From assembly GCF_014203015.1 (NCBI RefSeq), contig NZ_JACHIB010000001.1, positions 124,001 to 188,000 of the forward strand: DNA of 64,000 nucleotides, in the 5' to 3' direction. The position numbers were made by a program, and so were the translations under genes. Below the pieces are notes generated by a model, which worked only from the letters and a program-made list of their open reading frames with translations, was not told where the DNA came from and did no database searches. Of the stretch, positions 7,101-31,683 are shown piece by piece; the stretch's first letter is position 1; each line of letters starts with the position of its first letter. This stretch comes from Castellaniella defragrans. GTDB taxonomy: Bacteria; Pseudomonadota; Gammaproteobacteria; Burkholderiales; Burkholderiaceae_B.

Positions 7101-7123
7101 TCCGGTGATCTGATCGCCTCGCT

Positions 7124-7157
7124 GCCCCGGCACCAACATGCCGGGGCTTTTGTTTTA
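7124..7157 (+). terminator. Rho-independent terminator after the helicase gene
   Basis: GCCCCGGCA and TGCCGGGGC form a perfect 9-base-pair stem with a 6-base loop, followed at once by TTTTGTTTT. It begins 23 bases after the helicase stop codon. Confidence 0.88.
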
Positions 7158-7285
7158 TAGTCGTGGCATCCCTCCACGTCGCGGCTTGCAGGCCGCTCCG
7201 ATTCGCCAGGCACGCAGCAGTCCGCAGGGACTGCCGCGTGTCCGGGTTCATCCGTAGGGGACTGTCCTATCTCCCGCCTCGCCCC

Positions 7286-14736: not shown

Positions 14737-16143
14737 TCAATAGCGGTAATGGTCCGGCTTGAACGGGCCTGCGACCGGCACGCCGATGTAGTCGGCCTGC
14801 TTCTGCGTCAGCGTCGTCAGGCGCACGCCCAGCTTCTTCAGGTGCAGGCGGGCGACCTTTTCGTCCAGGTGCTTGGGCAGCACGTAGACCTGGCCGGTCT
14901 TGTAGTGGTCGCCGCGCGTGTACAGCTCGATCTGGGCGATGGTCTGGTTGGTGAAGGACGCCGACATCACGAAGGACGGATGGCCGGTGGCGCAGCCCAG
15001 GTTCACCAGGCGGCCCTTGGCGAGCAGGATGACGCGCTTGCCGTCCGGGAAGATGATGTGGTCCACCTGGGGCTTGATTTCCTCCCAGGGCAGGTCTTCC
15101 ACCGAGGCGACGTTGATCTCGCTGTCGAAGTGGCCGATGTTGCAGACGATGGCCTGGTCCTTCATGCGGTACAGATGGTCGCGGTCGATGACGTGGTAGT
15201 TGCCGGTGGCCGTGACGAAGATGTCCGCCTGCTCGACCACGTCGGCGTCGTTCAGGTCCACCACGCGGTAGCCTTCCATCGAGGCCTGCAGCGCGCAGAT
15301 GGGATCGACTTCCGTGACCCAGACCTGGGCGCGCAGGGCGGCCAGCGCCTGGGCGCAGCCCTTGCCCACGTCGCCGAAGCCGCAGACCACGGCGATCTTG
15401 CCCGCGACCATCACGTCGGTGGCGCGCTTGATGCCGTCCACCAGGGATTCGCGGCAGCCGTACAGGTTGTCGAACTTGGACTTGGTGACCGAGTCGTTGA
15501 CGTTGATGGCGGGGATCTTCAGCTCGCCGCGCTGCGACATCTGGTAGAGGCGGTGCACGCCGGTGGTGGTTTCCTCGGTCACGCCGCGGATCTGCGCCAG
15601 CCGCGTGGAATACCATTTCGGGTCGCGGGCCAGCTGCGCCCGGATGGCGGCGAACAGCACGCGCTCTTCCTCGTTGCCGGGGCGGGCGATGACCGAGGCG
15701 TCAGCCTCCGCGCGCGCGCCCAGGTGCAGCAGCAGGGTGGCGTCGCCGCCGTCGTCCAGGATCATGTTGGCCTGCTCGCCCGGCCAGTCGAAGATGCGGT
15801 GCGTGTACTGCCAGTAGTCTTCCAGGGACTCGCCCTTGACGGCGAACACCGGCGTGCCGCCCGCGGCGATGGCGGCGGCGGCGTGGTCCTGGGTGGAGAA
15901 GATGTTGCACGAGGCCCAGCGCACTTCCGCGCCCAGGGCCTTCAGGGTCTCGATCAGCACCGCCGTCTGGATGGTCATGTGCAGGCTGCCGGCGATGCGC
16001 GCGCCCTTCAGGGGCTGGGACGCGGCGAATTCTTCCCGCGTGGCCATCAGGCCGGGCATTTCGGTTTCGGCGATGGCGATTTCGCGGCGGCCCCAGTCGG
16101 CCAGGGCGATGTCGGCGATGACGTAGTCGTGTGCAGTGCTCAT
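14737..16143 (-). CDS. ahcY: S-adenosylhomocysteine hydrolase
   Basis: 468 residues, the proteobacterial length. Visible motifs are [16 protein letters not shown], the NAD-binding [29 protein letters not shown] with the active-site lysine, [12 protein letters not shown] and [14 protein letters not shown], ending in the usual KPDHYRY. The enzyme splits SAH to adenosine and homocysteine and keeps methyltransferases free of product inhibition. The leader carries an SAH riboswitch that should switch expression on when SAH accumulates. It is the first gene of the probable ahcY-holin-like-metF operon. Confidence 0.97.
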
Positions 16144-16240
16144 GGTGATCCTGTAGAGCCTGCGCCGGCGAAGGGGGCGTCACGGCCGTGCCCACCCCCG
16201 CCCGCGCAGGACGGCGATGGGCGCCGTTTGAAGAAGGAAT

Positions 16241-16307
16241 CCCGAGCCTGGCGGCGCGGGCGGGATCCATCGGATTCCACCGCCGCACCGGTGCAGCGCC
16301 CCTCGGG
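16241..16307 (-). ncRNA. SAH riboswitch aptamer in the ahcY leader
   Basis: Read on the reverse strand, the leader begins CCCGAGGGGCGCTGCACC and ends GCCGCCAGGCTCGGG. CCCGAG and CTCGGG pair as P1, and the conserved GGCGCTGC and CCAGGCTCGG blocks match the published SAH (adenosylhomocysteine) riboswitch consensus. Between them is a GC-rich variable hairpin. The aptamer starts about 10 bases after the -10 box and ends about 97 bases before the ahcY start. In this class ligand binding raises expression of SAH-recycling genes. The expression platform is unclear; an ACGGCG/CGCCGT hairpin follows but has no T tract. Confidence 0.9.
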
Positions 16308-16316
16308 CAAGTCCGA

Positions 16317-16322
16317 ATTATA
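16317..16322 (-). promoter_or_regulatory. -10 box (TATAAT) of the ahcY promoter
   Basis: A perfect TATAAT on the reverse strand lies 9 bases before the SAH aptamer, so transcription should start almost exactly at the riboswitch. The -35 region is poor, with no hexamer close to TTGACA at 16-18 bases. Confidence 0.7.
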
Positions 16323-16363
16323 GCGTGGGCGTCCCTGCCATGGCGGAGACGCCCGCGCGGCGT

Positions 16364-18295
16364 TCAGGACGCCGGCTGGGCGGGCAGCCGCGACGCCGGC
16401 AGGAAGGCGTCGGAGAAGCAGACGCTCTCGTCCAGCCCCTGGGCGATGAACGCCGGCGCCGCGGCCTCGACCATCCGCACCGAGCCGCACAGATAGACCT
16501 CGTAGCCGCTCAGGTCCGTGAAATCGGCCAGGATGGCTTCATGCACCAGGCCGGTGCGCCCCGTCCAGCCATCGCCTTCGGCGGGCTCGGAGAGCACCGG
16601 CACCACGGTGAAATTGGCGTGCTCGCGCTGCCACTGCTCGCAGCGTTCGAGCATGTACAGGTCCTCGCGCCGGCGCACGCCCCAGTACAGCCGCATGGGA
16701 CGCTGCACGCCGCGCGCGAAGGCGTCCTCCACGATGCTCTTGACGGGCGCGAAGCCCGTGGCGCCGGCCACGAACAGGATGGGCTGGCGGCTGTCGCGCA
16801 GCGTGAACTGGCCCAGCGGCCCCTCGAAGCGCACCACATCGCCGGGCTTCATGCCCTGGAACACGTGGGTCGTGAAGCGTCCCCCCGGGACGAGGCGGAC
16901 GTGCAGCTCGATCAGCGCGTCCGCACCGGGCCGGTTGGCGAAGGAGAAGGCGCGCCGCTGGCCGTCGTCGAGCACGATGTTGATGTACTGCCCCGCCTCG
17001 AAGTCCAGCGCCGCGCCCTCCGACGGCCGCAGGACCAGGAGCATCACGTCCTGGGCGAGCGGCTCCAGGCGCTCGACCACGGCGGTGTATTCGCGCACGG
17101 TGCGGGCCGTGCCCGCGCCCGCGACGGCGTCCTCGACCTCGACGACCATGTCGCCGCGCGGCACGGCGCAGCACATCAGGGCCATGCCGCGGGCCTTCTG
17201 GGCATCGGTCAGCGCGCCGGGGCTGTAGGGCCGGTGGTCGTAGGCGCCCTGCTGGACGGTGCAGATGCACAGGCCGCAGGCGCCGTTGCGGCACTCGAAG
17301 GACAGCGGCAGGCCTTCCCGCAGGCCGGCGTCGAGGATGGTCTCGCCCTCGCGCGCCTGGAACTGCGCGCTCGTGCCTTGCCCGCCGTGGATGACGAGCC
17401 CCGCCATGCGCCGCTCGCCGCGCCGGAACCGCGGCGGCCACCAGGGCAGCAGCGCGAGCAGCACGGAGCCGCCGACCACCAGGGCCCACACCCAGGCCAT
17501 CGGCCATTGCGTCATCAGCGGAAAGACCGCCATGTAGAACCAGTCGGGCTCGATCCGGGCGACGGCCCGGGCCAGGTCGCTGACCCCGCCCTGGCTGTGC
17601 ACCGGCGCCACGAACGACAGTGCCACCAGCGTGGCGAGCAGGCCGGCGGCGATGGCCCGCGGCGGCGTGGTGCGCGCCTTGGGCACCCGTTGCGCGTGGA
17701 TCGACATGACCATCAGCACCACCAGCGGCAGGCCCACGTGCATGAAGGACAGCAGGGTGAAGAAGCGGTTGCCGACGTGCTCGGTGTAGAGGAAATTGCG
17801 CATCAGCGCGCCGTCGAAGATCGGCAGCCAGTCGAGCCATTCAAACGTGGCCACGGTGACGTACTGCGCCAGCTGGTCCCAGGGCAGCATGTAGCCGTTG
17901 ATGCCCGTGGCGTAGACCATCCAGATCAGCATCACCCCGGTCATCCAGGAGAACCAGCGGAACCCGCGGAACCGGTCGAAGGCGAAATAGCGCAGCATGT
18001 GCAGCGCCATGGTGAGCACCATCGCGTCCGAGGCGTAGCGGTGCACGCTGCGCAGGATGCCGCCCAGCCACCATTGCGTGGTGCTCAGCTCGATCACCGA
18101 GTCGTAGGCGTCGACGATGCCGGTCTCGAAGAACACGTAGAGGTACAGGCCGCTGCCCCCCACCACCCAGAACAGGAAGAAGGAGATGGCGCCCAGGTGA
18201 TAGAAGGGATTGATGCGGTCGCCGAACGCGGCATTGAACATGCCTTCGACGCGCAGGAAGAGCCATTGCAGCAGGCTCTGGATTCTCTTGATCAT
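16364..18295 (-). CDS. Cytochrome b6 - [2Fe-2S] ferredoxin - FAD/NAD(P)H reductase fusion
   Basis: 643 residues. Residues 1-285 are a cytochrome b6-like membrane domain with two His pairs 14 residues apart (His85/His99 and His186/His200), the bis-haem spacing of b6. Residues 297-390 are a plant-type ferredoxin with cysteines 335, 340, 343 and 375. Residues 395-643 are a ferredoxin-NADP reductase module (RAFSFANRP, VAGATGFAPVKSI, YLCGSVRMVEAA). Electrons could pass from NAD(P)H through FAD and 2Fe-2S to membrane haem b, or the reverse. An AAGGGA ribosome site precedes the start. It lies 10 bases after the subunit-I-like gene and ends the operon. Confidence 0.85.
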   Translation of the reverse strand: MIKRIQSLLQWLFLRVEGMFNAAFGDRINPFYHLGAISFFLFWVVGGSGLYLYVFFETGIVDAYDSVIELSTTQWWLGGILRSVHRYASDAMVLTMALHMLRYFAFDRFRGFRWFSWMTGVMLIWMVYATGINGYMLPWDQLAQYVTVATFEWLDWLPIFDGALMRNFLYTEHVGNRFFTLLSFMHVGLPLVVLMVMSIHAQRVPKARTTPPRAIAAGLLATLVALSFVAPVHSQGGVSDLARAVARIEPDWFYMAVFPLMTQWPMAWVWALVVGGSVLLALLPWWPPRFRRGERRMAGLVIHGGQGTSAQFQAREGETILDAGLREGLPLSFECRNGACGLCICTVQQGAYDHRPYSPGALTDAQKARGMALMCCAVPRGDMVVEVEDAVAGAGTARTVREYTAVVERLEPLAQDVMLLVLRPSEGAALDFEAGQYINIVLDDGQRRAFSFANRPGADALIELHVRLVPGGRFTTHVFQGMKPGDVVRFEGPLGQFTLRDSRQPILFVAGATGFAPVKSIVEDAFARGVQRPMRLYWGVRRREDLYMLERCEQWQREHANFTVVPVLSEPAEGDGWTGRTGLVHEAILADFTDLSGYEVYLCGSVRMVEAAAPAFIAQGLDESVCFSDAFLPASRLPAQPAS

Positions 18296-18305
18296 TGGAT
18301 TCCCT

Positions 18306-19742
18306 TCAAGCCTTCGAGTCGCGCGCCGCCGGCGGGCGCATGGCGCGGATCGCCACCACCACGAACAGCAGCCCTCCGATGATGGCGATGAGGCCGCCCA
18401 GCCCCATCATGCCCATGCCGACCACCTCGCCGGTGCTGCGCAGCACCTGCTCGGCGCCCGCCACCTTGCGCTGCACCCCGTAGCCGCCGGACCAGACCAG
18501 CCCGGTGATGTGGATGAGCTGCCCGATGCCGTAGAGCCAGGGCTGCCAGGTGGCCATGCGGCCCTGCGGCGCGCGGTAGCCCAGCGCGGGCAGGACGCGG
18601 TAGACCACGCCCATGAGCGCCAGCGTCACGCCGACGATGCAGCCATGGTAGTGGGCCGGGATGCGCACGTTGCTGCCGGCGATGAAGATGCCGATCACGC
18701 CGCCCGCGGCGAACACCAGCACCGAGGCGAGCAGCGCCGCGCGCAGCGGCCGCTGCTCGGGGGCGCGCAGCCGCACCGCGAGCGCGCCGTAGACCACCGA
18801 CAGGCCGACCGGCAGGATGGCGGGGCCGCCGCCCAGGCGCATGGCCCAGGTGAGCAGGGCGCGGTGCTCGACGGACGCCACGTCGTGGGCGAGATAGGCG
18901 TAGGGCGTGACGAAGACCCCTGCCAGCGCCAGGGAGAACATCATGACCGTGACGCGCGGCGTCAGCACGGAACGCGCGCCGCACGCACTGGCCAGCCACA
19001 GCCAGGCCACCAGCATCAGCAGGGTCCAGGTGAACTGCAGGGCATGGCCGCCGCCCCAGAACAGGATCTCGTAGTAGGCCTTGCCGTGCAGCGAGGTGGG
19101 CAGCACGGCCCAGGACCAGGCGAAGCCGAGCACGCCGACGGCCGCGGCCACGGCGGCCGCGCCCAGGCCGAAGCCCAGCGCGCCCCGCCCGTCGTAGCGC
19201 ATGCCCAGCCGGGGCGCCGCCAGCAGGCTGCGCAGCACCAGCAGCGTCGCGCCCAGGCCGAACATCACCAGGCCCGCCAGGAACAGCGGCGATTCGAGCA
19301 CCGGGATGTAGTTGGCCATGATGGGCTGGCCCGGATTCAGGAAGGGCGCCAGCGCCATGGCGAGCGTGCCGGCGGCGGTGATCCACAGGCCCGGCCAGGC
19401 CAGCCATTGCGCGCGCGCGGTGCCGTACAGGCTCCAGAGCAGGCCGGCCATGGCGACGAACCAGACCAGCACCGACAGGTCCACGTGCAGCACCAGGGAA
19501 ATCTGGAAGAAGTCGGCGGCCGGCAGCCAGCGGTTCACGTAAGGGGTGCGCGAGGCCACCAGCAGCACCGAGAAGATGCCCGAGCCGATCAGCGCGGCCA
19601 GCCCGAGGCCGAGCCAGCCGCGCCCCAGCGTCAGGCGCGCTTCGCCGGAGACGTCCAGCTGGTAGTCCGCGCCCAGGCGCGCCGGCGGCGGAGCGGCCGG
19701 GACGCCTTGCAGGCCCGGCACATGACAGGGGTTCGCGCTCAT
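18306..19742 (-). CDS. Haem-copper oxidase subunit-I-like protein without the His-His copper pair
   Basis: 478 residues with about twelve membrane segments and an HCO subunit I pattern: His86 (LHVDLSVLVWF), His233 (GGGHALQF) and His364/His366 (HYHGCIVG). The adjacent His pair that completes CuB in true oxidases and NO reductases is not seen; only isolated His286 and His293 lie in that region (AHDVASVEHRALL). It may therefore bind haem but not form the usual binuclear centre. Automated annotation would probably call it a cytochrome c oxidase or cbb3 subunit I. The start overlaps the stop of the preceding small gene by ATGA. Confidence 0.72.
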   Translation of the reverse strand: MSANPCHVPGLQGVPAAPPPARLGADYQLDVSGEARLTLGRGWLGLGLAALIGSGIFSVLLVASRTPYVNRWLPAADFFQISLVLHVDLSVLVWFVAMAGLLWSLYGTARAQWLAWPGLWITAAGTLAMALAPFLNPGQPIMANYIPVLESPLFLAGLVMFGLGATLLVLRSLLAAPRLGMRYDGRGALGFGLGAAAVAAAVGVLGFAWSWAVLPTSLHGKAYYEILFWGGGHALQFTWTLLMLVAWLWLASACGARSVLTPRVTVMMFSLALAGVFVTPYAYLAHDVASVEHRALLTWAMRLGGGPAILPVGLSVVYGALAVRLRAPEQRPLRAALLASVLVFAAGGVIGIFIAGSNVRIPAHYHGCIVGVTLALMGVVYRVLPALGYRAPQGRMATWQPWLYGIGQLIHITGLVWSGGYGVQRKVAGAEQVLRSTGEVVGMGMMGLGGLIAIIGGLLFVVVAIRAMRPPAARDSKA

Positions 19743-20242
19743 TGCAGGACGATGCCTCCCTTGTCGGCGTTGAAATCGATCACCAGCACCTGGGCCGGCG
19801 CCAGCGTGACCACCGCCTCATGCTGCTGGACGGCTCCGCGGGCCGACTGGTCGTCGCGGAAGCGCACGGCGATGCGGTGCTCGCCCGCCGGGACGTCCAG
19901 GCGCCGGTACAGGGTGGAGGCGCCATCGCGCGACAGGCCCGAGGGCGCGGAGACGTGGCTGACCACCTGCCGGCCGTCGAGGTCCACCTCGATGCTCACC
20001 GGCGAGCGTTCCCGTTCGCATTTCGCGGCCCCGCGCATGTTGGGCGCGAGCTTGGCGAGTTCTTCGGCGGTGTAGGGCCGGCAGTCGGCCAGCCGCGCGC
20101 CGTGGTGCATGAAGCTGACCTTGATCTGCGCCATGTCGGGCCCCAGGGGGTGGTAGACGGGCCAGCGCGAAAAGACGCCGATCGCCACGGCGAAACAGCC
20201 ATACAGCAGGGCCTGGCCAAGCCAGTCGAACACGCGCCTCAT
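19739..20242 (-). CDS. Small membrane-anchored protein of the NOR-like cluster (orf1 position)
   Basis: 167 residues. One N-terminal membrane segment (about 8-27, GQALLYGCFAVAIGVFSRWP) is followed by a soluble, probably periplasmic domain rich in beta strands (VSIEVDLDGRQVV, YRRLDVPAGEHRIAVRF). I do not recognise the fold. An AGGAG ribosome site precedes the Met. Its place just after a SenC gene matches the position of the orf1 reported in norSY-senC-orf1 clusters of ammonia oxidisers; whether it is homologous cannot be judged here. It is coupled to the next gene through ATGA. Confidence 0.7.
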   Translation of the reverse strand: MRRVFDWLGQALLYGCFAVAIGVFSRWPVYHPLGPDMAQIKVSFMHHGARLADCRPYTAEELAKLAPNMRGAAKCERERSPVSIEVDLDGRQVVSHVSAPSGLSRDGASTLYRRLDVPAGEHRIAVRFRDDQSARGAVQQHEAVVTLAPAQVLVIDFNADKGGIVLQ

Positions 20243-20341
20243 CGGGGCTCTCCTAGGGAATGGGGGCTTGCGTCTCCGGGCGCCGGCGCCGCGATCCGGC
20301 CGCGGGGGCGGCGCCCGGCACGCGGATCGGACGCGCGTGCG

Positions 20342-21214
20342 TCAGGCGATGCCACGGTCCCTCTTTTTGGCTGAAATCCTGCGGCTCGTGCGCCATTCGT
20401 TGATGAAGAAGGCCATCATCAGGATGAAGAAGGTCGCGCCGCCGGCGATCTGGACCGGCAGGGTGTAATCGACCCGGTAGGCGCCGGTTTCCGGATCCAG
20501 CACCGTGCACATGATGCGGATGCGGTCCATCAGGTTGTCGAGCACGGAGTTTTCCGCGTTCATGGGCAGGCCGGCGAGCAGCATCTTCAGCGGCTCGCCC
20601 AGTTCGCCCGCCACGACGTCCTCGCCGTAGATCTGGCGCACGATGCGCCCGTCGGCGTCGAGCACCGAGACCTGGAGGACGTGGTCGAAGCCGGCCGGCG
20701 TGGCCGCATAGGCGAAGCCGAAATCCGCTGTCAGCGCGGGGACGATGGCCGCGGGCGGGCTGAGGAAATCCCAGTTGGGCGTCGTGATGCCGTACTGGGT
20801 GGCGAATGCCTTGAGCGCCTGCGGCGAATCCGCGGGCTGGTTGAAGCCGATGCTGACGACGTTGAACTGGCTGGCGCCCACGCTCTTTTGCAGGGCCTCG
20901 ACGGCTTCCTGCAGCGAACGGGTGGTGGCGGGACAGATCTGGAAGCAGCCGGTGTAGATGAAGCTGACCAGCAGGGGCTTGCCGCGGAAGGAGGAAAGGG
21001 CCACCGGGCGGCCCTGGCGATCCAGCAGGATGTGATCGCCGACCTGCCGCCCGAGCGCCGCCTGGCTGAGGCGCAGGGCCTGCCCGGGATCCAGCCCGGG
21101 ATTCCCGGCCGCCTCGGCGCGGCCCGCGGCCGGCGCCGCCATCAGCGCCAGCCCCAGACCGCATGCCGCAAATCCCCGCCATGCGCGGGAGAGAATCGAC
21201 CCGCCGGACCCCAC
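20342..21214 (-). CDS. SCO1/SenC family copper chaperone with C-terminal membrane anchor
   Basis: 290 residues from a GTG start. A signal-like N-terminus (GLGLALMAAPAAGRAEA) leads into a thioredoxin fold with the SCO copper motif CFQIC (Cys-x3-Cys) in SFIYTGCFQICPATT and the distal His in FDHVLQVS. The C-terminus adds a membrane helix (GGATFFILMMAFFINEW) and a basic tail, which most SCO proteins lack. SCO proteins insert copper into CuA sites, which fits the CuA subunit encoded two genes upstream. The gap to the next gene (20243-20341) is the only sizeable one in the cluster. Confidence 0.88.
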   Translation of the reverse strand: MGSGGSILSRAWRGFAACGLGLALMAAPAAGRAEAAGNPGLDPGQALRLSQAALGRQVGDHILLDRQGRPVALSSFRGKPLLVSFIYTGCFQICPATTRSLQEAVEALQKSVGASQFNVVSIGFNQPADSPQALKAFATQYGITTPNWDFLSPPAAIVPALTADFGFAYAATPAGFDHVLQVSVLDADGRIVRQIYGEDVVAGELGEPLKMLLAGLPMNAENSVLDNLMDRIRIMCTVLDPETGAYRVDYTLPVQIAGGATFFILMMAFFINEWRTSRRISAKKRDRGIA

Positions 21215-21239
21215 TATCTTCCCCGGTGCGCCCCGCGCG

Positions 21240-22940
21240 TCAACTCAGGCCCCACAGCTGGCTCAGGTACTTCCAGTTGACGAAGTAGTAGAGCACGAAG
21301 GCCAGCAGGAAGACCATGGCCAGGACGAAGGTGCCGGGCGCCACGAAGCCCGCCGAGCCGTAGGTCTGGGCCGCGAGGGTCGGCGCGGCGCGCTGGACCG
21401 GCGTGAAATGGGGGCTGACCGCGCCGGTGTCGAGCCGCTTGCCGAACAGCAGGGAGCCGATCACCAGGTAGACGAAGAGCGCGCCGCCGATGATGGCCAC
21501 GACCCCGCCGATACCCACCAGCCCCATCATCAGGTAGGCCGCGCCCGGCCATTCGTAGGCCAGCGCATGGCCGTTGAAGGCCATGTCCCAGTGGCGGCGG
21601 GATACGCCCAGCGTGCCGGCGCCCATCATCACGAGGCAGAAGAAGTACATCGCGAAGCCGAAGAGGTAGGGCTGGATGCGCGCCAGGTCGGGCGAGATGA
21701 TCTCGCGCCGGAACAGCACCGGAATCAGGAAGTAGGTCAGGCCCATGAAGGTCAGCGTGGAGCCGATGACGACGGTGGCGTGGAAGTGGCCGGGCACGTA
21801 GATGGTGTTGTGGATGAGCAGGTTGAGCTGCTCGGTGCCCATCATCACCCCCGAGATGCCGCCCAGGAAGCCGAAGCCGACCAGCGAGATGAAGACGCTG
21901 GAGAACACGGGATTGCCCCAGGGCGCCTTGCGCAGCCATTCAAACAGGCCCTTGTTGAAGCCCCGGGCGCGCTGCGCGACTTCCATGGCGCCGGGAATCG
22001 ACAGGGCGTGGATCATCGAGGCCAGCACGGCGAAATACATGAAGTAGCTGGTGTTGACGATCTTCCATTCGGTGCTGACGCCCGGGTCGGCCAGGATGTG
22101 GTGGGCGCTGGCGAGCTGCAGGAACAGGATGTACAGCAGGAAGGCGCCGCGGCTGACGCGCTCGGACATGGGCTTGGCGCCGAAGGCGATGGCCGCCACG
22201 GCATACCAGATCGAGATGTGGGCCGCGACGTTGATCTGCTGGGACGAGTGGCCCAGCGCCCACCAGATCACCCGGTACACCAGCGGATCGACGTTCTGCA
22301 GCAGCCCGATGGACATGAAGAAGGTCGGGATCAGGATGATGGCGCCCGACAGCAGGGTGAAGACGGCGATGATCGCCGCCGTCATGGCGCCGAACGTGAC
22401 CAGGGGGACCGAGCCTTCGTAGGTCTTTTCCCGCTTGGCGACGACCATCGTGCCGAAGAACACGCCGCAGGCGATCAGCGCGCCGACGGCGAACACGATC
22501 AGCCCGAGATAGAACGACCAATGGGCCATCATCGGCACATAGGAGGTCATCATCACGCTGGAATCGCCCCGGAACACGGCGATGTTGTTGACCACCGCGC
22601 CGACGAGCATGAGCGCGTAGGCGAGCCAGGCGATGCGCGGGGTGGCGATGCGGCAGCGCAGCAGGGTCGAGGAGGCGAAATACAGTACCGCGATCTCGAA
22701 GAAGATCATCCAGTAGATCAGCATGTCCAGGCCGTGCGCCGTGAGCACCATGTAGAAGGTGTCGGCGGGCAGCCAGTGCACGGCGGGCCAGCGGGTGAGC
22801 ACCACGCCGATGGCCAGCAGGCCGCCGACGAGCAGCGCCACGATGGCCGTGACGGCGTTGATCTTGATGAGTTTTTCAGCCTGGTCCTCGAACTGCAGAC
22901 CCGAGCGCGGACACGTGCGATAAGTGGTATGAGTGGCCAT
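21240..22940 (-). CDS. Haem-copper oxygen/nitric oxide reductase subunit I (NorS-like)
   Basis: 566 residues with about 13 membrane helices. Haem ligands are His69 (TAHGLDM) and His385/His387 (PGHFHATVV). The CuB ligands are His231 (ALGHSSQQ), His280 and His281 (SAHHIL). The position four residues after His231, Tyr in A- and B-type oxidases, is Gln235, so the cross-linked tyrosine is missing. With a CuA subunit, a SenC gene and a small orf beside it, this resembles the norSY-senC-orf1 (sNOR) clusters proposed as NO reductases in Nitrosomonas. Oxidase activity cannot be excluded. An AGGGA ribosome site precedes the ATG. Confidence 0.82.
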   Translation of the reverse strand: MATHTTYRTCPRSGLQFEDQAEKLIKINAVTAIVALLVGGLLAIGVVLTRWPAVHWLPADTFYMVLTAHGLDMLIYWMIFFEIAVLYFASSTLLRCRIATPRIAWLAYALMLVGAVVNNIAVFRGDSSVMMTSYVPMMAHWSFYLGLIVFAVGALIACGVFFGTMVVAKREKTYEGSVPLVTFGAMTAAIIAVFTLLSGAIILIPTFFMSIGLLQNVDPLVYRVIWWALGHSSQQINVAAHISIWYAVAAIAFGAKPMSERVSRGAFLLYILFLQLASAHHILADPGVSTEWKIVNTSYFMYFAVLASMIHALSIPGAMEVAQRARGFNKGLFEWLRKAPWGNPVFSSVFISLVGFGFLGGISGVMMGTEQLNLLIHNTIYVPGHFHATVVIGSTLTFMGLTYFLIPVLFRREIISPDLARIQPYLFGFAMYFFCLVMMGAGTLGVSRRHWDMAFNGHALAYEWPGAAYLMMGLVGIGGVVAIIGGALFVYLVIGSLLFGKRLDTGAVSPHFTPVQRAAPTLAAQTYGSAGFVAPGTFVLAMVFLLAFVLYYFVNWKYLSQLWGLS

Positions 22941-22953
22941 GTCGATCCCTGTT

Positions 22954-23493
22954 TTACTTGACGTACAGGCGGCTCACCATCTCGTGGTGGCCGATGCCGC
23001 AATACTCATTGCACACGATGGAGAAGGTGCCGGACTCGGTCGGCGTGACCTTGATCACGTGCTCGTAGCCGGGCACCACCTGGATGTTCATGTTGACGGG
23101 CTGCAGCGAGAAGCCGTGGTTGTAGTCCATCGCGGTCAGGTGCAGCTTGTAGGTCTTGCCCTTTTCCAGTTCCAGGATCGGCCACCAGCTCCACAGCCGG
23201 GCGATCAGGTAGATGTCGGAGCCTTCGGGCGGCGCGACCACGGGGATTTTCTGTTCGGTTTCGGTGCGGACCGTCCATTTGTCCACGAAGGCCTGCGTCT
23301 GGGCCATGAATTTCGCGGGATTGGTCTTGTAGGTTTCGGTCGCCAGGTTCTGCTTGCCGTAGACGTGCCAGAACACCATCATGAAGAACATGATCATGCA
23401 CCAGATGAAGGCGATGATGATCCAGGTGGCTTCGAGGCGGTCGAGCGGGTGCTTCCACCACAGCCGTTCCGAGGGGGGCAGGATTGCGCTCAT
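22954..23493 (-). CDS. CuA-containing subunit II (NorY-like)
   Basis: 179 residues with one N-terminal membrane helix (about 22-43, TWIIIAFIWCMIMFFMMVFW) and a periplasmic cupredoxin domain. The CuA site is complete: His in DYNHGFSL and Cys-x3-Cys-x3-His-x2-Met in CNEYCGIGHHEM. It would receive electrons from a c-type cytochrome or similar donor and pass them to subunit I. It is short, as in B-type HCO partners. AAGGA precedes the start, and the gene lies 9 bases after the 51-residue membrane peptide. Confidence 0.88.
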   Translation of the reverse strand: MSAILPPSERLWWKHPLDRLEATWIIIAFIWCMIMFFMMVFWHVYGKQNLATETYKTNPAKFMAQTQAFVDKWTVRTETEQKIPVVAPPEGSDIYLIARLWSWWPILELEKGKTYKLHLTAMDYNHGFSLQPVNMNIQVVPGYEHVIKVTPTESGTFSIVCNEYCGIGHHEMVSRLYVK

Positions 23494-23502
23494 GGTGCTT
23501 CC

Positions 23503-23658
23503 TTATTTGGCTGCGGGAATCGTCAGGATGTCGATGAAGCCCCATAGGTTGTAGATGACCATGGGGATGACCACACCTAGAAACAGCAATAGAAAGGGGC
23601 TGTCCAGCAATTGCTGGATGAGCGGCACTTTTTCGTCTTCGTCGTCATGGTGATCCAT
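23503..23658 (-). CDS. Small single-span membrane peptide, first gene of the NOR-like operon
   Basis: A 51-residue frame begins MDHHDDEDEKVPLIQQLL, crosses the membrane once (FLLLFLGVVIPMVIYNLWGF) and ends IDILTIPAAK. It has a strong AGGAG ribosome site 8 bases before the ATG and lies 9 bases upstream of the CuA subunit, which strongly supports translation. Acidic, His-containing N-terminus and single helix resemble the small accessory subunits (IIa or IV type) of B-family haem-copper enzymes. No homology can be claimed without a search. Confidence 0.75.
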   Translation of the reverse strand: MDHHDDEDEKVPLIQQLLDSPFLLLFLGVVIPMVIYNLWGFIDILTIPAAK

Positions 23659-23745
23659 GGCTGTTCTCCTCTCGTGAAACCTCCCGGGGCTTTTTATTGG
23701 GGGATGGAATGGAAGCCCGGTACAAATCTATTTCAGAGTGTTGTG

Positions 23746-23751
23746 ATTGTC
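23746..23751 (-). promoter_or_regulatory. Possible -10 element of the NOR-like operon
   Basis: GACAAT on the reverse strand matches TATAAT at four of six bases. It lies where a -10 box should be if the FNR/Dnr-type site is centred at -41.5, giving a start near 23739. Confidence 0.4.
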
Positions 23752-23773
23752 CGGACCCGCAGAAACCGGCGCC

Positions 23774-23787
23774 ATGATCCAGATCAA
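23774..23787 (-). promoter_or_regulatory. FNR/Dnr-type binding site upstream of the NOR-like operon
   Basis: On the reverse strand the sequence is TTGATCTGGATCAT, differing from the TTGAT-N4-ATCAA consensus of FNR, Anr and Dnr regulators only at the last base. It lies 116 bases before the first gene. This supports induction under low oxygen or nitric oxide. It is also 66 bases from the divergent COX15-like gene and could affect both. Confidence 0.65.
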
Positions 23788-23852
23788 TTTTCAGGGATGA
23801 GCCCGGGGTTTTACGCAAATAGTCCGCCGGCGCGCCGCCAAAGGATGTGAAA

Positions 23853-24812
23853 ATGCCGCACGGCCCGTCCGAGGACGCCCGAAAAGGCCGGCGCCCGCGG
23901 CGCCGGAACATCCCCATCCCCATTCGAGAAGCCGCAGGAATGAGCGAACTTGCCCCCCTCCCAGGCCGCACGCCTTCCCGCCCGGCCGGCCGGCTGATGC
24001 TGCTGCGCGGCATGGCCTGGACCTGCGCCGTGCTGGTGCTCGTCATCATCGGCCTGAGCGCCCACATCCGCCTGACCCGCACCGCTCCGGCCTGCGAGCC
24101 CTGGCCCCAGTGCCAGGACTCGCTGTCGCAGGCGCCGCGCGCGCAGCCGCCCGCCGGCGCGCGCGAGCCTTCGCCGGCCGTGCGCATGGCGCACCGCGTG
24201 ACCGCCTCGGCGACCCTGCTGCTGGTGCTGGCCATGCTGGCGACCACCCTGAGCGCGCGCCCCGCCCTGCGGGCCGAAGGCCGGCTGGTCCTGGGCATGC
24301 TGGGCCTGACGCTGTTTCTCGCGGTGCTCGGGCGCTGGGGAGGATCGTCGCTGCACCCGGCCGTGACGCTGGGCAACCTGCTCGGGGGCTTCTGTCTGTT
24401 CGCCCTGGGCACGCGGCTGGCGCGCACCGCGACGCCCACGCCCACGCCCGCGGGGAGCGGCGGCCAGGGCGGCCGGGACGGCCAGGCGCCGCCGCGGCGC
24501 TGGGTGCGGCCCGCGATCCTGCTGGTGCTGGCGCAGATCGCCCTGGGCAGCCTGATGGGCGCGGACATCGCCTGGCTGCAGACGACGCACCGCGTCACCG
24601 GGCTGGCGCTGGTGGCGCTGCTGCTGACGCTGTCCTGGCGCGTCCGGCGCCAGGGCGGCCGCGCCCTCGCCGCCGCGCTGGCGGTCCTGCCCGTGCTGCT
24701 GGCGATACTGGGGCTGGCGCTCACGGCGCCCGCTCCGCCGCTGGCGCTGATCCTGGCGCACAATCTCTGCGCCGCGCTGCTGCTCGCGGCGCTGGCGGGA
24801 ATCAGGCGCTAG
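23853..24812 (+). CDS. COX15/CtaA-like haem A synthase family protein
   Basis: 319 residues with about eight membrane helices. Family-like elements are GLSAHIRLTRTAPACEPWPQC (after helix 1), RMAHRVTASATLLL, LHPAVTLGNLLGGF, QTTHRVTGLALVAL and LAHNLCAALLLAAL, giving the periodic His residues of CtaA/COX15. Family members oxidise haem O to haem A with an electron donor. No ctaB (haem O synthase) is nearby. AAAGGA 7 bases upstream favours the ATG at 23853; the Met at 23940 would give 290 residues. It is divergent from the NOR-like operon, suggesting service to that enzyme. Confidence 0.72.
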   Translation: MPHGPSEDARKGRRPRRRNIPIPIREAAGMSELAPLPGRTPSRPAGRLMLLRGMAWTCAVLVLVIIGLSAHIRLTRTAPACEPWPQCQDSLSQAPRAQPPAGAREPSPAVRMAHRVTASATLLLVLAMLATTLSARPALRAEGRLVLGMLGLTLFLAVLGRWGGSSLHPAVTLGNLLGGFCLFALGTRLARTATPTPTPAGSGGQGGRDGQAPPRRWVRPAILLVLAQIALGSLMGADIAWLQTTHRVTGLALVALLLTLSWRVRRQGGRALAAALAVLPVLLAILGLALTAPAPPLALILAHNLCAALLLAALAGIRR

Positions 24813-24855
24813 GGGCCGTCCGGCGCGCCCACGGGCCGCGGCCCCGCCGCCCGCC

Positions 24856-26319
24856 TCACGGCGCCGCGGACGGCGCCGCGCCCATGGCGTGGAAGAGGCG
24901 CGCGGCCTCCAGCAGCCGCTGCGCGCGCACGTCCAGGGCGTCCAGTTCCGCCAGCTCCGCCTGGCGGCCGGCCGCGCGGGCGGCCGACGGCGGCACCGCG
25001 CCCAGCGCCGCGCGCCGGGCGGCATCGGCGGCGGCGCCCCGGGCCGCCCCGGCGGCCGCGTCCCCGGCGGCCTGCGCGGCGCCCGCCTGCTCCAGCGAGG
25101 CCAGCGCATCGGCCACCTCGCGGAAGGCGGCCAGCACCGTGCTCCGGTAATCGTCCTCGGCCGCCGCGTAGGCGCGCAGGCTGGCGCGCTGCTGCGCCCG
25201 CAGGGCGCCGCCATGGAACAGCGGCGCCGTCAGGCCGCCCGCGAGGCTCCACAGGGCGCCCTCGGGCGACAGCGCGGCCGGCCAGTCGTAGCCGCCGCGC
25301 CCCATGGCCGCCGTCAGCGTCAGGCTGGGGAACAGGTCGGCGCTCGCCGCGCCCGCGTCGTGGGCCGCCGCGGCGAGCGCCGCCCGCGCCGCCTGGACGT
25401 CGGGCCGCGCGGCCAGCAGCGCGGAAGGCACCAGCACGGGGATGCGCGCGGGCAGGCGCAGCCGCTCGAAGGGGATGGCCTCGGGCGCCCGGTCGGGCGT
25501 GCGCCCGAGCAGCACGGCCAGGGCATGCCGGAGCGTGAGCGCCTGCGCCCGCAGGCCCGGGATCTGCGCCGCCACGGCCTCGGCCTGGCGGCGCGCGTCC
25601 AACACGGCGGCGCGCGGCGCGGCGCCCAGGGCCTGGCGGCGGGCGGACTCCGCCGCGTCGCGCCGCAGGCCGTCGGCCACGGACGCCAGGATGCGCAGGC
25701 GCGCCTGCAGCACGGACAGGGTCAGCGCGCCGGACACCACGTTCGCCGCCAGCGCTTCGCGGGCGGCGCGCCACTGGGCCGCACGCTGCTCCACCCGCTC
25801 GGCCAGGGCTCGGTTGCGCTCGCGGATCGAGCCGAACAGGTCGAAGGTGTAGCGGACCTGGGCCTGGCCGACGAAGGTGTCGTAGAGCGAGGTGCGGGGC
25901 AGCTCGGGCAGGGGCGGCGGCAGTTCCAGCGGCAGGCCGAGCGCGCGCTGGCGCGCCGCCTGGGCGCCCAGGTCGACCGAGGGCAGTTCCGTGGCGCCGA
26001 CCTGCGCCCGCAGGACCTCGCGCGCCGCCTCCAGACGCCCGCGCGCGGCGGCCAGGTCGGGATTGGCCGCGCGCGCTTCGGCCACCAGCGCATCCAGCTC
26101 GGGCGCGCCGAACGTCGTCCACCAGGACGCCTCGGGCGCCTGCGCCGCCACCAGTTCGGGACCGTCCGCCGGCGCGGCATCCGGCGGCGGGCCCGCGACG
26201 TAGCGCGCCGGTTCGGGCACGGCCGGCGGCCGCCCCGAAGGCCCCAGGGCGCAGCCCGCCAGGCCCAGGCTCGACGCCAGGCCCAGCACGGCCGCCGCCC
26301 TCGTCCGCCGGCCGTTCAT
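24856..26319 (-). CDS. RND efflux outer membrane lipoprotein, NodT/TolC family
   Basis: 487 residues with a lipoprotein signal (VLGLASSLGLAGC) and the doubled OEP repeat of the NodT/OprM family: WWTTFGAPELDALVAEA with NPDLAAARGRL in the first half, and AARPDVQAARAALAAAAHDAGAASADLFPSLTLTA in the second. It forms the outer-membrane channel of a tripartite efflux pump. Its ATG overlaps the stop of the RND permease (ATGA), and it is the last gene of the operon. Confidence 0.92.
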   Translation of the reverse strand: MNGRRTRAAAVLGLASSLGLAGCALGPSGRPPAVPEPARYVAGPPPDAAPADGPELVAAQAPEASWWTTFGAPELDALVAEARAANPDLAAARGRLEAAREVLRAQVGATELPSVDLGAQAARQRALGLPLELPPPLPELPRTSLYDTFVGQAQVRYTFDLFGSIRERNRALAERVEQRAAQWRAAREALAANVVSGALTLSVLQARLRILASVADGLRRDAAESARRQALGAAPRAAVLDARRQAEAVAAQIPGLRAQALTLRHALAVLLGRTPDRAPEAIPFERLRLPARIPVLVPSALLAARPDVQAARAALAAAAHDAGAASADLFPSLTLTAAMGRGGYDWPAALSPEGALWSLAGGLTAPLFHGGALRAQQRASLRAYAAAEDDYRSTVLAAFREVADALASLEQAGAAQAAGDAAAGAARGAAADAARRAALGAVPPSAARAAGRQAELAELDALDVRAQRLLEAARLFHAMGAAPSAAP

Positions 26320-29300
26320 GGCGCTTCTCCCGCGGGGCGGCCCGCGTCCCCGCCCTCATCCCCGTCCCGGACCCGGAACATCAGCGCGTACAGGGCTGGC
26401 AGCACGAAGACCGTGAGCACGGTGGCGCTGGTGATGCCGCCCATCAGGGCGGTGGCCATGGGGCCGAAGAAGTCGCTGCGCAGCAGCGGGATCAGCGCCA
26501 GCACGGCGGCGGCCGCCGTCAGCGTGATGGGGCGGAAGCGCCGCACGGTCGCGTCCACGATGGCGTCGATGCGGCGATGGCCGGCCGCGATGTCCTGCTC
26601 GATCTGGTCCACCAGGATCACCGAATTGCGCATGATGATGCCGAACATGGCGATCACGCCCAGCAGGGCGACGAAGCCGAAGGGCTTGCCGAAGATCAGC
26701 AGCGCGAGGACCACGCCGATCAGCCCCAGCGGCGCGGTCAGGACCACCAGCACCACCCGGGAGAAGCGCTGCAGCTGGATCATCAGCAGGGTCAGCACGG
26801 CCACGACCAGCACCGGAGTCTGGGCGTTGATCGACGCCTGCGCCTTGGCGCTGCTTTCCACCGCGCCGCCCACCTCGATGCGGTAGCCGACGGGCAGGCC
26901 GGCGCGGATGTCGGCGAGCCGCGCGTCCACGGCCCGTGTCAGATCGATCCCCTCGACGCCCGGCGCCACCTCGGCGCGCACGGTGATCGTGGGCTGCCGG
27001 TCGCGCTCCCAGACGATGGCGTGCTCCAGCCCCTCGCGCATCCCGCCCAGCGCCTCCAGGGGCACGGCGCCGCGCGGCGAGGGCAGGGCCAGATGCGCCA
27101 GGGCCCCGGGATCGCCGCGCTCGGACTCGGGCGCGCGCAGGTCGATGCGGATCAGGCGGTCGCCCTCGCGGTACTGCGACACGGGCCGGCCCGACAGGGT
27201 CATGGCGAGGAAATCCGCGACGTCGCGCGAGGCGATGCCCAGCCGCTGCGCGGCCTGCTGATCGACCTCGAAATGCGACACGCGCGCCGAGGGCTCGTCC
27301 CAGTCGAACTGCGTGTTGCGGGCGCGGGGATCGGCGCGCAGCACGGCCGCCACGGCCTCCGCCGCCTGGCGCACGCGCGGGACGTCGTCGCCGCTGACGC
27401 GGAACTGGACCGGGAAGCCGACGGGCGGACCCGACTCCAGGCGCGACACCCGCCCACGCACGGCCGGGAATTCCGTGCGCAGCGCCGATTCCAGCCAGGG
27501 CTTGAGCGCTTCCCGGTCCTCGATGGACTTCGCCGTGACGACATACTGCGCGAAGTTCGGCGACGGCAGCTGCTCGTCCAGCGGCAGGTAGAAGCGCGGC
27601 GCGCCGGTGCCCACGAAGCCCACGGCGCGCGCCACCTCGGCGCGTCCGTCCAGCAGCGCCTCCAGGCGCTTCGCCTGCGCCAGCGTCGCCTCGAACGAGG
27701 CGCTTTCGCGCAGCCGCAGGTCCACCAGCAGCTCCGGCCGGGCCGAGTCGGGGAAGAACTGCTGCGGCACCAGCCGGAAGGCCGCCAGCGCGGCCACGAA
27801 CAGCGCCAGCGTCACGGCGACGACGCCGCCGCGGCGGCGCACACAGGCATGCAGCCAGCGCCGCAGCCGGCGGTAGAAGGGCGAATCGTAGAGGTCGCGC
27901 GCCGCGGCGCCGTCCGCCGGCGCGGGATGCGCGTGCGGCCGCAGCAGGGCGTGGCCCAGCAGCGGGATCAGGATCACGGCGGCCAGCCAGGACACCAGCA
28001 GCGAGATGGCCGACACCTGGAAGATCGAGCGCGTGTATTCCCCGGTGTTCGAGCGCGCCAGGGCGATCGGCAGGAAGCCCGCGACCGTGACCAGGGTGCC
28101 CGTCAGCATGGGAAACGCCGTGCTGGTGTAGGCGAAGGCCGCCGCGCTCAGCCGGTCCCAGCCCTGCTCCAGCTTCACGGCCATCATCTCGACCGCGATG
28201 ATGGCGTCGTCCACCAGCAGGCCCAGCGCCAGGATCAGGGTCCCCAGGGACACCTTGTGCAGCCCGATGCCCATCCAGTCCATGGCCAGCGCCGTCAGCG
28301 CCAGCACCACGGGGATCGAGATCACCACCACCATGCCGGTGCGCAGTCCCAGCGACACCAGGCTGACCAGCAGCACGATGGCCACGGCCTCGCCCACGGC
28401 GCGCAGGAATTCGTCGACCGAGGCCGTCACGGCGTCGGGCATGCTGGCGACTTCTTCCAGCGACAGGCCGGTCGGCAGCCGCTCCCGCAGGCCGGCCACC
28501 GCGTCGCGCAGCTGCCGCCCCAGGTCCACCACGTCGTAGCCTTCGGCGGCGGTCACGCCGATGCCCAGCACCGGCCGCCCGGCATGCCGCATCTGCGTGG
28601 ACGGCGGCTGCGCCGCGCCGCGCCGGATCTCGGCGATGTCGCCCAGGCGCACCAGCCGGTCGCCGGCGGGCACCAGCGTGTCGGCCAGGTCCTCCAGGCT
28701 GTGAAACTGCCCGGTGGGACGCACGTACAGCCGGTCGGACGCGGTGGATACCACGCCGGGGTCGGCCACGGCGTTGCGCGCGGCGATCGCCTGACTGATG
28801 CGCGCGGGCGTCAGGCCCGATTGCGCCATCACGGCGTTGGGAATGCGGACCTCGATGCGCTCTTCCTGGTCGCCGAAATAATCGACCTTGGCCACGCCCG
28901 GCACCCGCAGCAGCACGGTGCGCAGGATGTCGGCCTGGTCGCGCAGCTGCGCCGGCGTGTAGCCGTCGCCCGCCAGCGCGTAGATGTTGGTGTACACGTC
29001 GCCGAATTCGTCGTCGAAGAACGGCCCGGCCACGCCGGCGGGCAGTTCGGCGGCCAGGTCGCCGATCTTCTTGCGCACCTGGTACCACTCGTCGGGCACC
29101 TTGCGGGCATCCACGGCCTCGCTCATGAAATAGAAGATCGTGGACTGGCCCGGCCGCGAATAGCTGGCGGTGTAGTCGCGGTGCGGCATTTCCTGCAGCT
29201 TGCGTTCGATGCGGTCGGTGACCTGCTCGCGCACCTGCTCGGCCGTGGCGCCGGGCCACAGGGTCTGGACCACCATGACGCGGAAGGTGAAGGGCGGATC

Positions 29301-29447
29301 CTCGGACTGCGCCAGGCGCAGGCCCGCCAGCGTGCCGGCCACCACCATGACCGCGATCAGGTAGATCACCAGCGAGCGATGCAGGATCGCCCAGCGCGAC
29401 AGGTTGAATCCCCCGTCCGCCGGATGGGCCCCGGACGGCCCGCTCAC
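26316..29447 (-). CDS. RND family efflux inner-membrane transporter
   Basis: 1043 residues from a GTG at 29447 that overlaps the stop of the membrane-fusion gene (GTGA). It has the twelve-helix RND layout with two large periplasmic loops. Helix 1 is IYLIAVMVVAGTLAGLRLA, helix 4 holds LGLLVDDAIIAVEMM with the paired aspartates of the proton relay, and the end shows FGIIMRNSVILVDQI and ALMGGITSATVLTVFVLPAL. The QSEDPPFTFRVMVVQTLWPG start suggests a less-studied HAE1-like subgroup rather than AcrB. The substrate is unknown. Confidence 0.92.
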   Translation of the reverse strand: MSGPSGAHPADGGFNLSRWAILHRSLVIYLIAVMVVAGTLAGLRLAQSEDPPFTFRVMVVQTLWPGATAEQVREQVTDRIERKLQEMPHRDYTASYSRPGQSTIFYFMSEAVDARKVPDEWYQVRKKIGDLAAELPAGVAGPFFDDEFGDVYTNIYALAGDGYTPAQLRDQADILRTVLLRVPGVAKVDYFGDQEERIEVRIPNAVMAQSGLTPARISQAIAARNAVADPGVVSTASDRLYVRPTGQFHSLEDLADTLVPAGDRLVRLGDIAEIRRGAAQPPSTQMRHAGRPVLGIGVTAAEGYDVVDLGRQLRDAVAGLRERLPTGLSLEEVASMPDAVTASVDEFLRAVGEAVAIVLLVSLVSLGLRTGMVVVISIPVVLALTALAMDWMGIGLHKVSLGTLILALGLLVDDAIIAVEMMAVKLEQGWDRLSAAAFAYTSTAFPMLTGTLVTVAGFLPIALARSNTGEYTRSIFQVSAISLLVSWLAAVILIPLLGHALLRPHAHPAPADGAAARDLYDSPFYRRLRRWLHACVRRRGGVVAVTLALFVAALAAFRLVPQQFFPDSARPELLVDLRLRESASFEATLAQAKRLEALLDGRAEVARAVGFVGTGAPRFYLPLDEQLPSPNFAQYVVTAKSIEDREALKPWLESALRTEFPAVRGRVSRLESGPPVGFPVQFRVSGDDVPRVRQAAEAVAAVLRADPRARNTQFDWDEPSARVSHFEVDQQAAQRLGIASRDVADFLAMTLSGRPVSQYREGDRLIRIDLRAPESERGDPGALAHLALPSPRGAVPLEALGGMREGLEHAIVWERDRQPTITVRAEVAPGVEGIDLTRAVDARLADIRAGLPVGYRIEVGGAVESSAKAQASINAQTPVLVVAVLTLLMIQLQRFSRVVLVVLTAPLGLIGVVLALLIFGKPFGFVALLGVIAMFGIIMRNSVILVDQIEQDIAAGHRRIDAIVDATVRRFRPITLTAAAAVLALIPLLRSDFFGPMATALMGGITSATVLTVFVLPALYALMFRVRDGDEGGDAGRPAGEAP

Positions 29448-30565: not shown

Positions 30566-30670
30566 GTGCGTCCCAGCGAGCGACGGCCGGGCAACCCGGC
30601 GAACGGCCCCGGCCCGCGCGCTCGCCGGCCGTCATGCCGACGGGGAGTTTATTTCAATACAATATCGAAT

Positions 30671-30692
30671 TCAAATACATTGATGTATTTGA
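30671..30692. promoter_or_regulatory. 22-base perfect palindrome, candidate TetR operator
   Basis: TCAAATACAT and its exact complement ATGTATTTGA are separated by TG. The site stands in an AT-rich stretch between the divergent efflux operon and tetR-type gene, about 106 bases from the former and 154 from the latter. Length and symmetry suit a TetR dimer. Confidence 0.75.
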
Positions 30693-30715
30693 AGCGCAGG
30701 AGCCGACGGGTAGGT

Positions 30716-30755
30716 GCCGGAGCGCGGGGGCCGGAGCGCGGACGCCGAAGCGCAG
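30716..30755 (+). repeat. Three 14-base tandem repeats before the TetR gene
   Basis: GCCGGAGCGCGG recurs at 30716 and 30730, and a variant GCCGAAGCGCAG at 30744, giving a strict 14-base period. They lie between the operator and the TetR start, so they fall in its leader. The role is unknown; they may be simple slippage products. Confidence 0.6.
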
Positions 30756-30845
30756 AGGCCGGGGCGGGATGCGGACACGGGGATGCAGGCGCGCCCGGAT
30801 CCGCGCATGCGCGGACCCACGGTTTGTTCCTACAATCCGGACATC

Positions 30846-31520: not shown

Positions 31521-31616
31521 CAGTCGGGATTGCTCCGACCGTCCGGACCGCCCGAGCCGTCCGCGTCCCGAGGGAGGGGCGGCCGCCCCGGCGCGGAGAT
31601 GCGCCGGGCGCACCCA

Positions 31617-31643
31617 GGAAAACGGCCCGCCGGAGCGGGCCGT
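31617..31643 (-). terminator. Rho-independent terminator after metK
   Basis: On the reverse strand ACGGCCCGC and GCGGGCCGT form a perfect 9-base-pair stem with a 4-base loop, followed by a short TTTT run. It is 41 bases beyond the metK stop. The short T tract lowers confidence slightly. Confidence 0.65.
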
Positions 31644-31683
31644 GCGGGCCGTGTGCCGCGAACCGTACTGCCGGCCGCCGTCC

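Follow-up and report, generated by a model that had tools for sequence, protein, structure and literature searches.

Which enzyme is encoded by the heme-copper core of a seven-gene run on the minus strand (23658 to 16364) of a 64,000-nucleotide stretch of the Castellaniella defragrans genome (contig NZ_JACHIB010000001.1, positions 124,001 to 188,000; hereafter, the window), and what might the genes accompanying that core contribute? An earlier note, made from the sequence alone, had described the run as a cluster of the sNOR type with extra genes, and each of the seven genes was indeed found in place. According to our analysis, however, the cluster would encode a nitric oxide (NO) reductase of the little-studied eNOR family, reportedly treated by Hemp and Gennis in 2008 and by Murali et al. 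in 2024, together with accessory proteins, and we give this explanation as a whole a probability of roughly 0.75.

When subunit I (P0003) was aligned with the ba3 oxidase of Thermus thermophilus, which it resembles over most of the sequence and in the ligands, the motif GHSSQQ was found where the oxidase has GHPIVY, with the catalytic Tyr replaced by Gln (Gln235). The same Gln occurs in 132 of the 133 rows of the alignment (the query plus 132 distinct homologue frames scoring above 300 bits, window copies included), the remaining row having a gap. In the methods and Table A4 of PMC8756737, the residue at this position is diagnostic, being Tyr in oxygen reductases, Glu in cNOR and qNOR, Asn in sNOR/CuANOR, Gln in eNOR, and Asp in gNOR; PMC11388526 reports eNOR as biochemically characterised, citing Murali 2024. 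Since Gln marks eNOR, subunit I is, by its sequence, a member of the eNOR family, and the name sNOR is wrong. Furthermore, the histidines that bind the hemes and CuB are all present (H69, H231, H280, H281, H385, and H387), the second subunit (P0002) is a CuA cupredoxin, and subunit I groups with Gln-type proteins next to the B family. In particular, the 15 rows with Gln formed a single group (SH-aLRT 96) beside B-family oxidases, in a tree obtained by a quick search that gave long-branch warnings and included no named, characterised eNOR sequence.

The other proteins close to the core are in agreement with an enzyme of this type. The CuA ligands of P0002 (H126, C161, E163, C165, H169/H170, and M172) are conserved to 97% or more in 97 rows, so that the entry route from cytochrome c looks intact. 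The gene of the 51-residue peptide (P0001) is present in 77 of the 80 relatives of the locus (the best 80 of 573), the three misses falling at contig ends, and short open reading frames of 41 to 60 residues stand at the same position in four plasmid loci; by its place and size, the peptide presumably resembles subunit IIa of ba3 oxidases, and it is likely a small subunit of the eNOR core. The SCO1/SenC-type protein (P0004) is, judging from its sequence, probably the copper chaperone for CuA.

Table 1. Features of the candidate eNOR locus and of its surroundings, in window coordinates (TM, transmembrane)
Feature	Position	Strand	Basis or remark
51-residue single-TM peptide (P0001, gene 1)	23503-23658	-	likely small subunit of eNOR core
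eNOR subunit II, membrane-anchored CuA cupredoxin (P0002, gene 2)	22954-23493	-	PF00116, 22.3 bits vs cut-off 22
eNOR subunit I, heme-copper superfamily, B-family-like (P0003, gene 3)	21240-22940	-	PF00115, 202.6 bits; Gln235
SCO1/SenC-type protein (P0004, gene 4)	20342-21214	-	PF02630
167-residue single-TM beta-sandwich protein (P0005, gene 5)	19739-20242	-	structural model; without Pfam match
12-TM COX1-like protein lacking the CuB His pair of helix VII (P0006, gene 6)	18306-19742	-	weaker COX1 match, 55.4 bits
Cytochrome b (4 His) + Fer2 [2Fe-2S] + FAD + NAD fusion (P0007, gene 7)	16364-18295	-	domain matches
FNR/Dnr-type palindrome TTGATCTGGATCAT	23774-23787	-	sequence; 129 bp before first start codon
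Divergent CtaA/COX15-like heme A synthase	23940-24812	+	PF02628 on longer reading 23847-24812; alignment
RND efflux set: OEP	24856-26319		
RND efflux set: AcrB-type	26316-30635		
RND efflux set: TetR	30714-31520		

The gaps between consecutive genes, from gene 1 to gene 7, measure 9, 13, 25, 99, -4, and 10 nucleotides (nt), followed by 220 nt to ahcY. Given this spacing, it is plausible that the seven genes form one transcription unit, in accordance with the operon proposed earlier. The presence of an FNR/Dnr-type site upstream was also confirmed, the palindrome matching 9 of the 10 consensus bases. Of 78 regions upstream of the cluster (77 relatives plus the window; three relatives whose peptide gene is cut by a contig end were dropped), 55 hold a site agreeing with the consensus at 8 or more of the 10 bases, compared to 10% of random 300-bp windows from the same loci and 6% of shuffled upstream regions. 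Among these 55 sites, 45 lie at 70 to 130 bp and 10 further up, while 23 of the 78 regions fall short of 8 matches. The relatives share ancestry and do not count independently; as a feature of the family, the site is more than chance.

The genes downstream of the core were counted in the 57 relatives with at least 8.6 kb of downstream sequence (23 were too short and were dropped). SenC, P0005, and P0007 are found in all 57, P0006 in 56, a heme O synthase (CtaB) in 53, and a further gene (gene 8, P0008), which encodes a fusion of cytochrome b, two [4Fe-4S] clusters, and FlpD, in 56. Two gene orders are common, 1-2-3-CtaB-4-8-5-6-7 and 1-2-3-CtaB-4-7-5-8-6, and the order 1-2-3-4-5-6-7, lacking CtaB and gene 8, occurs in the window and in one relative (L095). 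Judged by sequence, a nine-gene cluster is common in Burkholderiales, and the window holds a reduced version of it. By these counts, the supposed extra genes are not peculiar to this locus. The absence of the last two genes from most homologous clusters, a possibility raised by the earlier note, is not what close relatives show (56 and 57 of 57 loci have them), whereas outside the order the fusion was unseen in the stretches fetched. Elsewhere in the window genome there is one CtaB match (C1:215297, about 4 kb from an aa3-type oxidase gene), 38% identical to that of relative L034; P0008 was not found in this genome, the two matches being P0007 itself and, at C1:278102, a weak match with a cytochrome b. 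Upstream sequence of 9 kb or more was available for 50 relatives, and on either side of their clusters, we could notice nirS or nirJ in 24 cases, an FNR-type regulator in 23, and CtaA in 29 (query proteins checked by hidden Markov models [HMMs]).

The co-occurrence of the genes, which the earlier note had put forward as a check, is visible across genomes as well. Among 200 genomes of the order, subunit I is present in 19 (E < 1e-130), P0006 in the same 19 (E < 1e-100), and full-length P0007 (E < 1e-200) also in 19, 18 of which carry all three. At 1e-60, P0007 finds matches in 183 of the 200 genomes, those listed below the break at 1e-110 being confined to either the reductase part or the cytochrome b part, as happens with other proteins. 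As for the deviating genomes, G011 has subunit I and P0006 without P0007; G153 has P0007 on a 4-kb contig together with genes resembling P0004 and P0005 and the beginning of a further cytochrome b gene, probably a cut cluster; in G145, the match to P0006 is weaker (5e-67) and eNOR is absent; and G081 has a 26% match to subunit I only. In 10 of the 19 genomes, the three genes form a single run on the same strand; five genomes have the fusion or P0006 out of place or on the opposite strand (G039, G102, G118, G179, and G187), and the set is split over contigs in three (G030, G126, and G170). A sample of 398 genomes from the phylum gave 30 with subunit I (E to 1e-50) and 58 with P0006 (E to 1e-20). 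All but one (G554) of the 30 genomes with subunit I also have P0006, and 29 genomes have P0006 alone. Any p value for such co-occurrence would be inflated by shared ancestry.

Outside the order, the gene content of eNOR loci is graded. The arrangement 1-2-3-CtaB-4-8-5 is found in four loci (L287, L288, L291, and L292), with nirS behind it in L288 and L292; L290 has 1-2-3-CtaB-4 and no match to genes 5, 7, or 8 in the next 5.5 kb; L285 is cut after SenC; and L286 reads 1-2-3-4-8-8-5-6-CtaA. P0007 occurs in none of these seven loci, as far as the fetched stretches reach, some of them cut short and the rest of the genomes lying outside the search. P0006 stands in the run in L286 only, and L291 has a copy 4.7 kb upstream; since P0006 is present in few clusters of the phylum sample but in 29 of the 30 genomes mentioned above, it shares the genome with subunit I more often than the cluster. 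In addition to the core, a Defluviimonas plasmid (L136) carries CtaB, SCO, a cytochrome b gene, and a gene of the size of gene 5 that matches P0005, with no full-length match to P0007 in the fetched stretch, to which the search of that genome was confined. A Thermomicrobium plasmid has the core and a heme O synthase and two Thermus plasmids have the core alone, no cytochrome b fusion being annotated beside the core in these three loci. Judging from this gradation, the accessory genes look as if they had been added in steps. In Thermus TF24, an eNOR homologue lies near nirS and an Rrf2 regulator, and in Thermus HB5018, one lies near genes for a multicopper oxidase, Rrf2, and DUF542; the link to NO-making enzymes, as read from gene neighbourhoods, appears in distant kin, too.

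Two side observations concern subunit I in other bacteria. In the eNORs of two Thermus thermophilus plasmids (L137 and L139), the second His of helix X is replaced by Lys (GHFK), a residue found in 2 of the 133 rows, and a Lys-ligated heme is possible there, at a position expected to hold a ligand of the low-spin heme. Moreover, in an unplaced group represented by L028 and L029, 28% identical to P0003, helix VI of the heme-copper subunit I reads FHNMHY, and YHM replaces the HH of helix VII.

The last gene of the run encodes, as proposed earlier, a fusion of cytochrome b with Fer2, FAD, and NAD domains. The cytochrome b histidines of P0007 (85, 99, 186, and 200) and the ferredoxin cysteines (335, 340, 343, and 375) are at least 97% conserved in 71 rows. 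A simple hydropathy scan gave four membrane windows, fewer than expected for the cytochrome b part, and because of this shortfall, the placement of the flavin part in the cytosol is inferred. The soluble part matches ferredoxin-NAD(P)H reductases of the BenC/MmoC type and the membrane part matches cytochrome b6, but in P0007, the two are fused and tied to an NO reductase cluster. In P0008 of the relatives, four histidines, eight cluster cysteines, and four FlpD cysteines are conserved in 82 rows; its FlpD domain, with the four conserved cysteines, is like MvhD/FlpD of hydrogenase-heterodisulfide reductase complexes, from which P0008 differs in being fused to cytochrome b and to a two-cluster ferredoxin domain. 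In "Candidatus Accumulibacter," a fusion of cytochrome b/b6 with NAD and flavin domains has reportedly been described, in a paper that our literature search did not return.

P0006 had been described in the earlier note as a second protein similar to subunit I, and this holds in part. A profile of 38 P0006 sequences matches ba3-type oxidases and 7deg in the PDB (19 sequences; best E, 7e-13), the single sequence having matched none of the solved structures; the structural model (pLDDT 91) has a 12-TM fold whose best match is a ba3 oxidase (TM-score 0.66), and H86, H233, H364, and H366, including the heme-ligand histidines, are invariant in the 38 rows. However, the CuB His pair of helix VII is replaced, with H233 kept, and we rejected P0006 as a second catalytic subunit on this ground. 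We also considered 25 loci of COX1-like relatives (L221 to L245; best-scoring matches in the phylum sample), with no match to P0005, P0007, or P0008 in flanks of up to 1.5 kb. The neighbour is CtaA in seven of them, CtaB in one, a DrrA-like ABC ATPase in five, and none of the tested genes in 12, several of which lie at contig ends. The ABC ATPase had been a candidate for CcmA, which the HMM search rejected, and it is no known heme exporter. Within the order, three paralogues of P0006 lie in ccm clusters and a fourth lies beside a CcsA-like gene, and in some eNOR clusters, CtaA follows P0006 (L144, L148, L149, L157, and L219); the names of the CtaA, Ccm, NirS, and NirJ neighbours are supported by HMMs, the CtaA queries by Pfam. 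In view of these neighbours, a role of P0006 in heme handling or assembly is at least as likely as one in electron transfer.

It is possible to hypothesize, then, that P0006, and perhaps the fusion with it, serves the synthesis or insertion of heme A, the fusion supplying reductant for a monooxygenation of the CtaA type and P0006 acting as a heme-handling scaffold. Mitochondrial COX15 requires ferredoxin and its reductase, and the frequent company of CtaB and CtaA would fit such a role. The absence of any such neighbour in nearly half of the 25 loci and of a detectable CtaA near 21 of the 50 eNOR clusters argues against it, and the presence of heme A in the enzyme is itself hypothetical; we regard this hypothesis as a tentative one that falls short of even odds.

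P0005 has two conserved cysteines and is, according to the structural model, probably periplasmic; compared with solved structures, it gave no credible match (best Foldseek E, 0.013). One relative (L215) has two P0005-like genes (4973-5467 and 7105-7602), each of them next to the gene of a cytochrome b fusion, a hint of a partnership between P0005 and those proteins. For both P0006 and the beta-sandwich protein, an accessory function, in heme handling, assembly, or electron relay, is more likely than that of a second catalytic centre.

The earlier note had also suggested that the fusion could feed electrons from NAD(P)H straight into the membrane complex, bypassing bc1 and cytochrome c. In this case, the fusion, and perhaps the COX1-like protein, would be built into the complex. 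The near-perfect co-occurrence of the genes within the order and the complete-looking reductase domains, together with the conserved cytochrome b His and ferredoxin Cys of the fusion, speak for such an arrangement, but the CuA ligands are intact and the entry from cytochrome c is kept. Moreover, two Thermus plasmids and the Thermomicrobium plasmid have eNOR loci without an annotated fusion beside the core, eight further loci outside the order (L285 to L288, L290 to L292, and L136) gave no full-length match within the limits of the search already described, and in 5 of the 19 genomes of the order, the gene of the fusion or that of the COX1-like protein lies out of place or on the other strand. 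We consider the bypass quite unlikely.

More improbable still is that subunit I is a B-family-like oxygen reductase, i.e., a high-affinity oxidase, as has been argued for the sNOR of Nitrosomonas europaea in PMC6967387. The closest solved structures, matched over most of the protein and its ligands, are ba3-type oxidases, the tree neighbours are B-family oxidases, and the CtaA and CtaB neighbours fit a heme of the oxidase type. The active-site Tyr of such enzymes is, however, a Gln here and in every homologue with a readable site, and nir genes and a site of the NO/low-oxygen type lie nearby.

As a reference for sNOR, we examined the genomes of the same order that were AMO positive (12 of 399), eight of which, all of one genus, were scanned for COX1 proteins. 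Two of the eight (L134 and L135) have the norSY-senC-orf1 order, i.e., CuA, subunit I, SCO, and a hydrophobic orf, and the motifs of their subunit I are GHVFIN and GHVVIN, with Asn at the diagnostic position. The window shares with these sNORs of ammonia-oxidising bacteria the order of the first three genes, as the earlier note had observed, but the gene after senC encodes the modelled single-TM beta-sandwich protein rather than the hydrophobic orf1. Subunit I of the window is 22% identical to that of L135 over 441 residues and matches that of L134 over 57 residues only (37%), and the two kinds lie on opposite sides of a split with an SH-aLRT of 99, in a tree with a long-branch warning and an sNOR placement that disagrees with published work. 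Thus, with Gln instead of Asn, low identity, a different fourth protein, and a separate branch against a shared order of three genes, we reject membership in the sNOR group and leave next to no chance that the cluster is an sNOR with extra genes.

For the eNOR reading, the following mechanism may be proposed. The core would take electrons from periplasmic cytochrome c via CuA and reduce NO to N2O at the heme/CuB site, with Gln235 nearby, under low oxygen or NO, as expected from the family; a regulator of the FNR/Dnr type would control the cluster, and the enzyme would deal with the NO made by the NirK of the organism, which is encoded in the window genome, 3.3 kb past the right end of the window. 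The fusion of cytochrome b, [2Fe-2S], and flavin domains would link cytosolic NAD(P)H to the membrane, through the quinone pool or a partner within the cluster, as an accessory supply of reductant, and the accessory proteins would support assembly or the supply of reductant.

Several points weigh against this reading. The reduction of NO by the window protein is deduced from its family, and the roles of the fusion, P0006, and P0005 from composition and neighbours. The relatives compared are the closest ones, by title mainly from Burkholderiales, and not independent, and nirS or nirJ was not found near 26 of the 50 examined for it. The window genome yields weak propeller matches and no NirS, and by motif, it has two other candidate NO reductases, L004 (HLWVEG) and L006 (HYWVEG), so that the cluster is not required to explain the removal of NO. 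Finally, the quick tree sets the sNOR rows of ammonia-oxidising bacteria on the A/C-family side, its deep branches being unsafe, while PMC6967387 and PMC11388526 tie sNOR to the B family; because of this conflict, the diagnostic residue was given more weight than the deep branches.

With regard to the surroundings of the cluster, the interval from ahcY to metK (16143-31684) holds the eNOR cluster, CtaA, and the RND efflux set, which may form an inserted block. The CtaA-like protein lacks most of the second extracytoplasmic loop, including a Cys pair kept in all six aligned relatives. Outside the window (G000:C4:73612-81486), about 6 kb separate a second NirK-like frame, 492 residues long, from an odd member of the COX1 family (L002, with the motif GHNAVG).

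The locus has in common with the eNOR family the active-site Gln, the CuA cupredoxin as subunit II, the B-family-like subunit I, and the nir genes near some members. What differs here is that Burkholderiales conserve an accessory set made up of CtaB, SCO, two cytochrome b fusions, the beta-sandwich protein, and the CuB-less COX1-like protein, two of which are missing from the window form. Our literature search, which did not cover the main eNOR paper (Murali 2024), found no description of a cluster with this composition, and accessory genes of eNOR are not named in the portions seen of PMC4940428, PMC6967387, PMC8756737, PMC12569097, PMC11388526, PMC8114936, PMC10734462, and PMC9270275; the novelty of the nine-gene set is provisional. 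As a speculation that we hold to be rather unlikely, the eNOR of Burkholderiales and their kin might be a multiprotein NO-respiring membrane system with its own cytosolic electron input, different from cNOR, qNOR, and sNOR. Electrons would be exchanged in it among NAD(P)H (and perhaps ferredoxin), the quinone pool, and the core by the CuB-less protein and by one or two cytochrome b proteins whose flavin or iron-sulfur modules lie in the cytosol.

NO reductases produce the greenhouse gas N2O. Pfam and NCBIfam name subunit I as an oxidase only, and the plasmid records call its kin oxidases; with such names, these bacteria can be overlooked as NO reducers, and a fixed set of accessory genes would serve as a marker for this form of eNOR. 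A member of the heme-copper superfamily that lacks CuB and stands beside genes of heme A synthesis and cytochrome c maturation is of interest in itself, and the accessory set as a whole would offer an entry to the electron donor of eNOR, its heme content, and the coupling of NO reduction to energy conservation.

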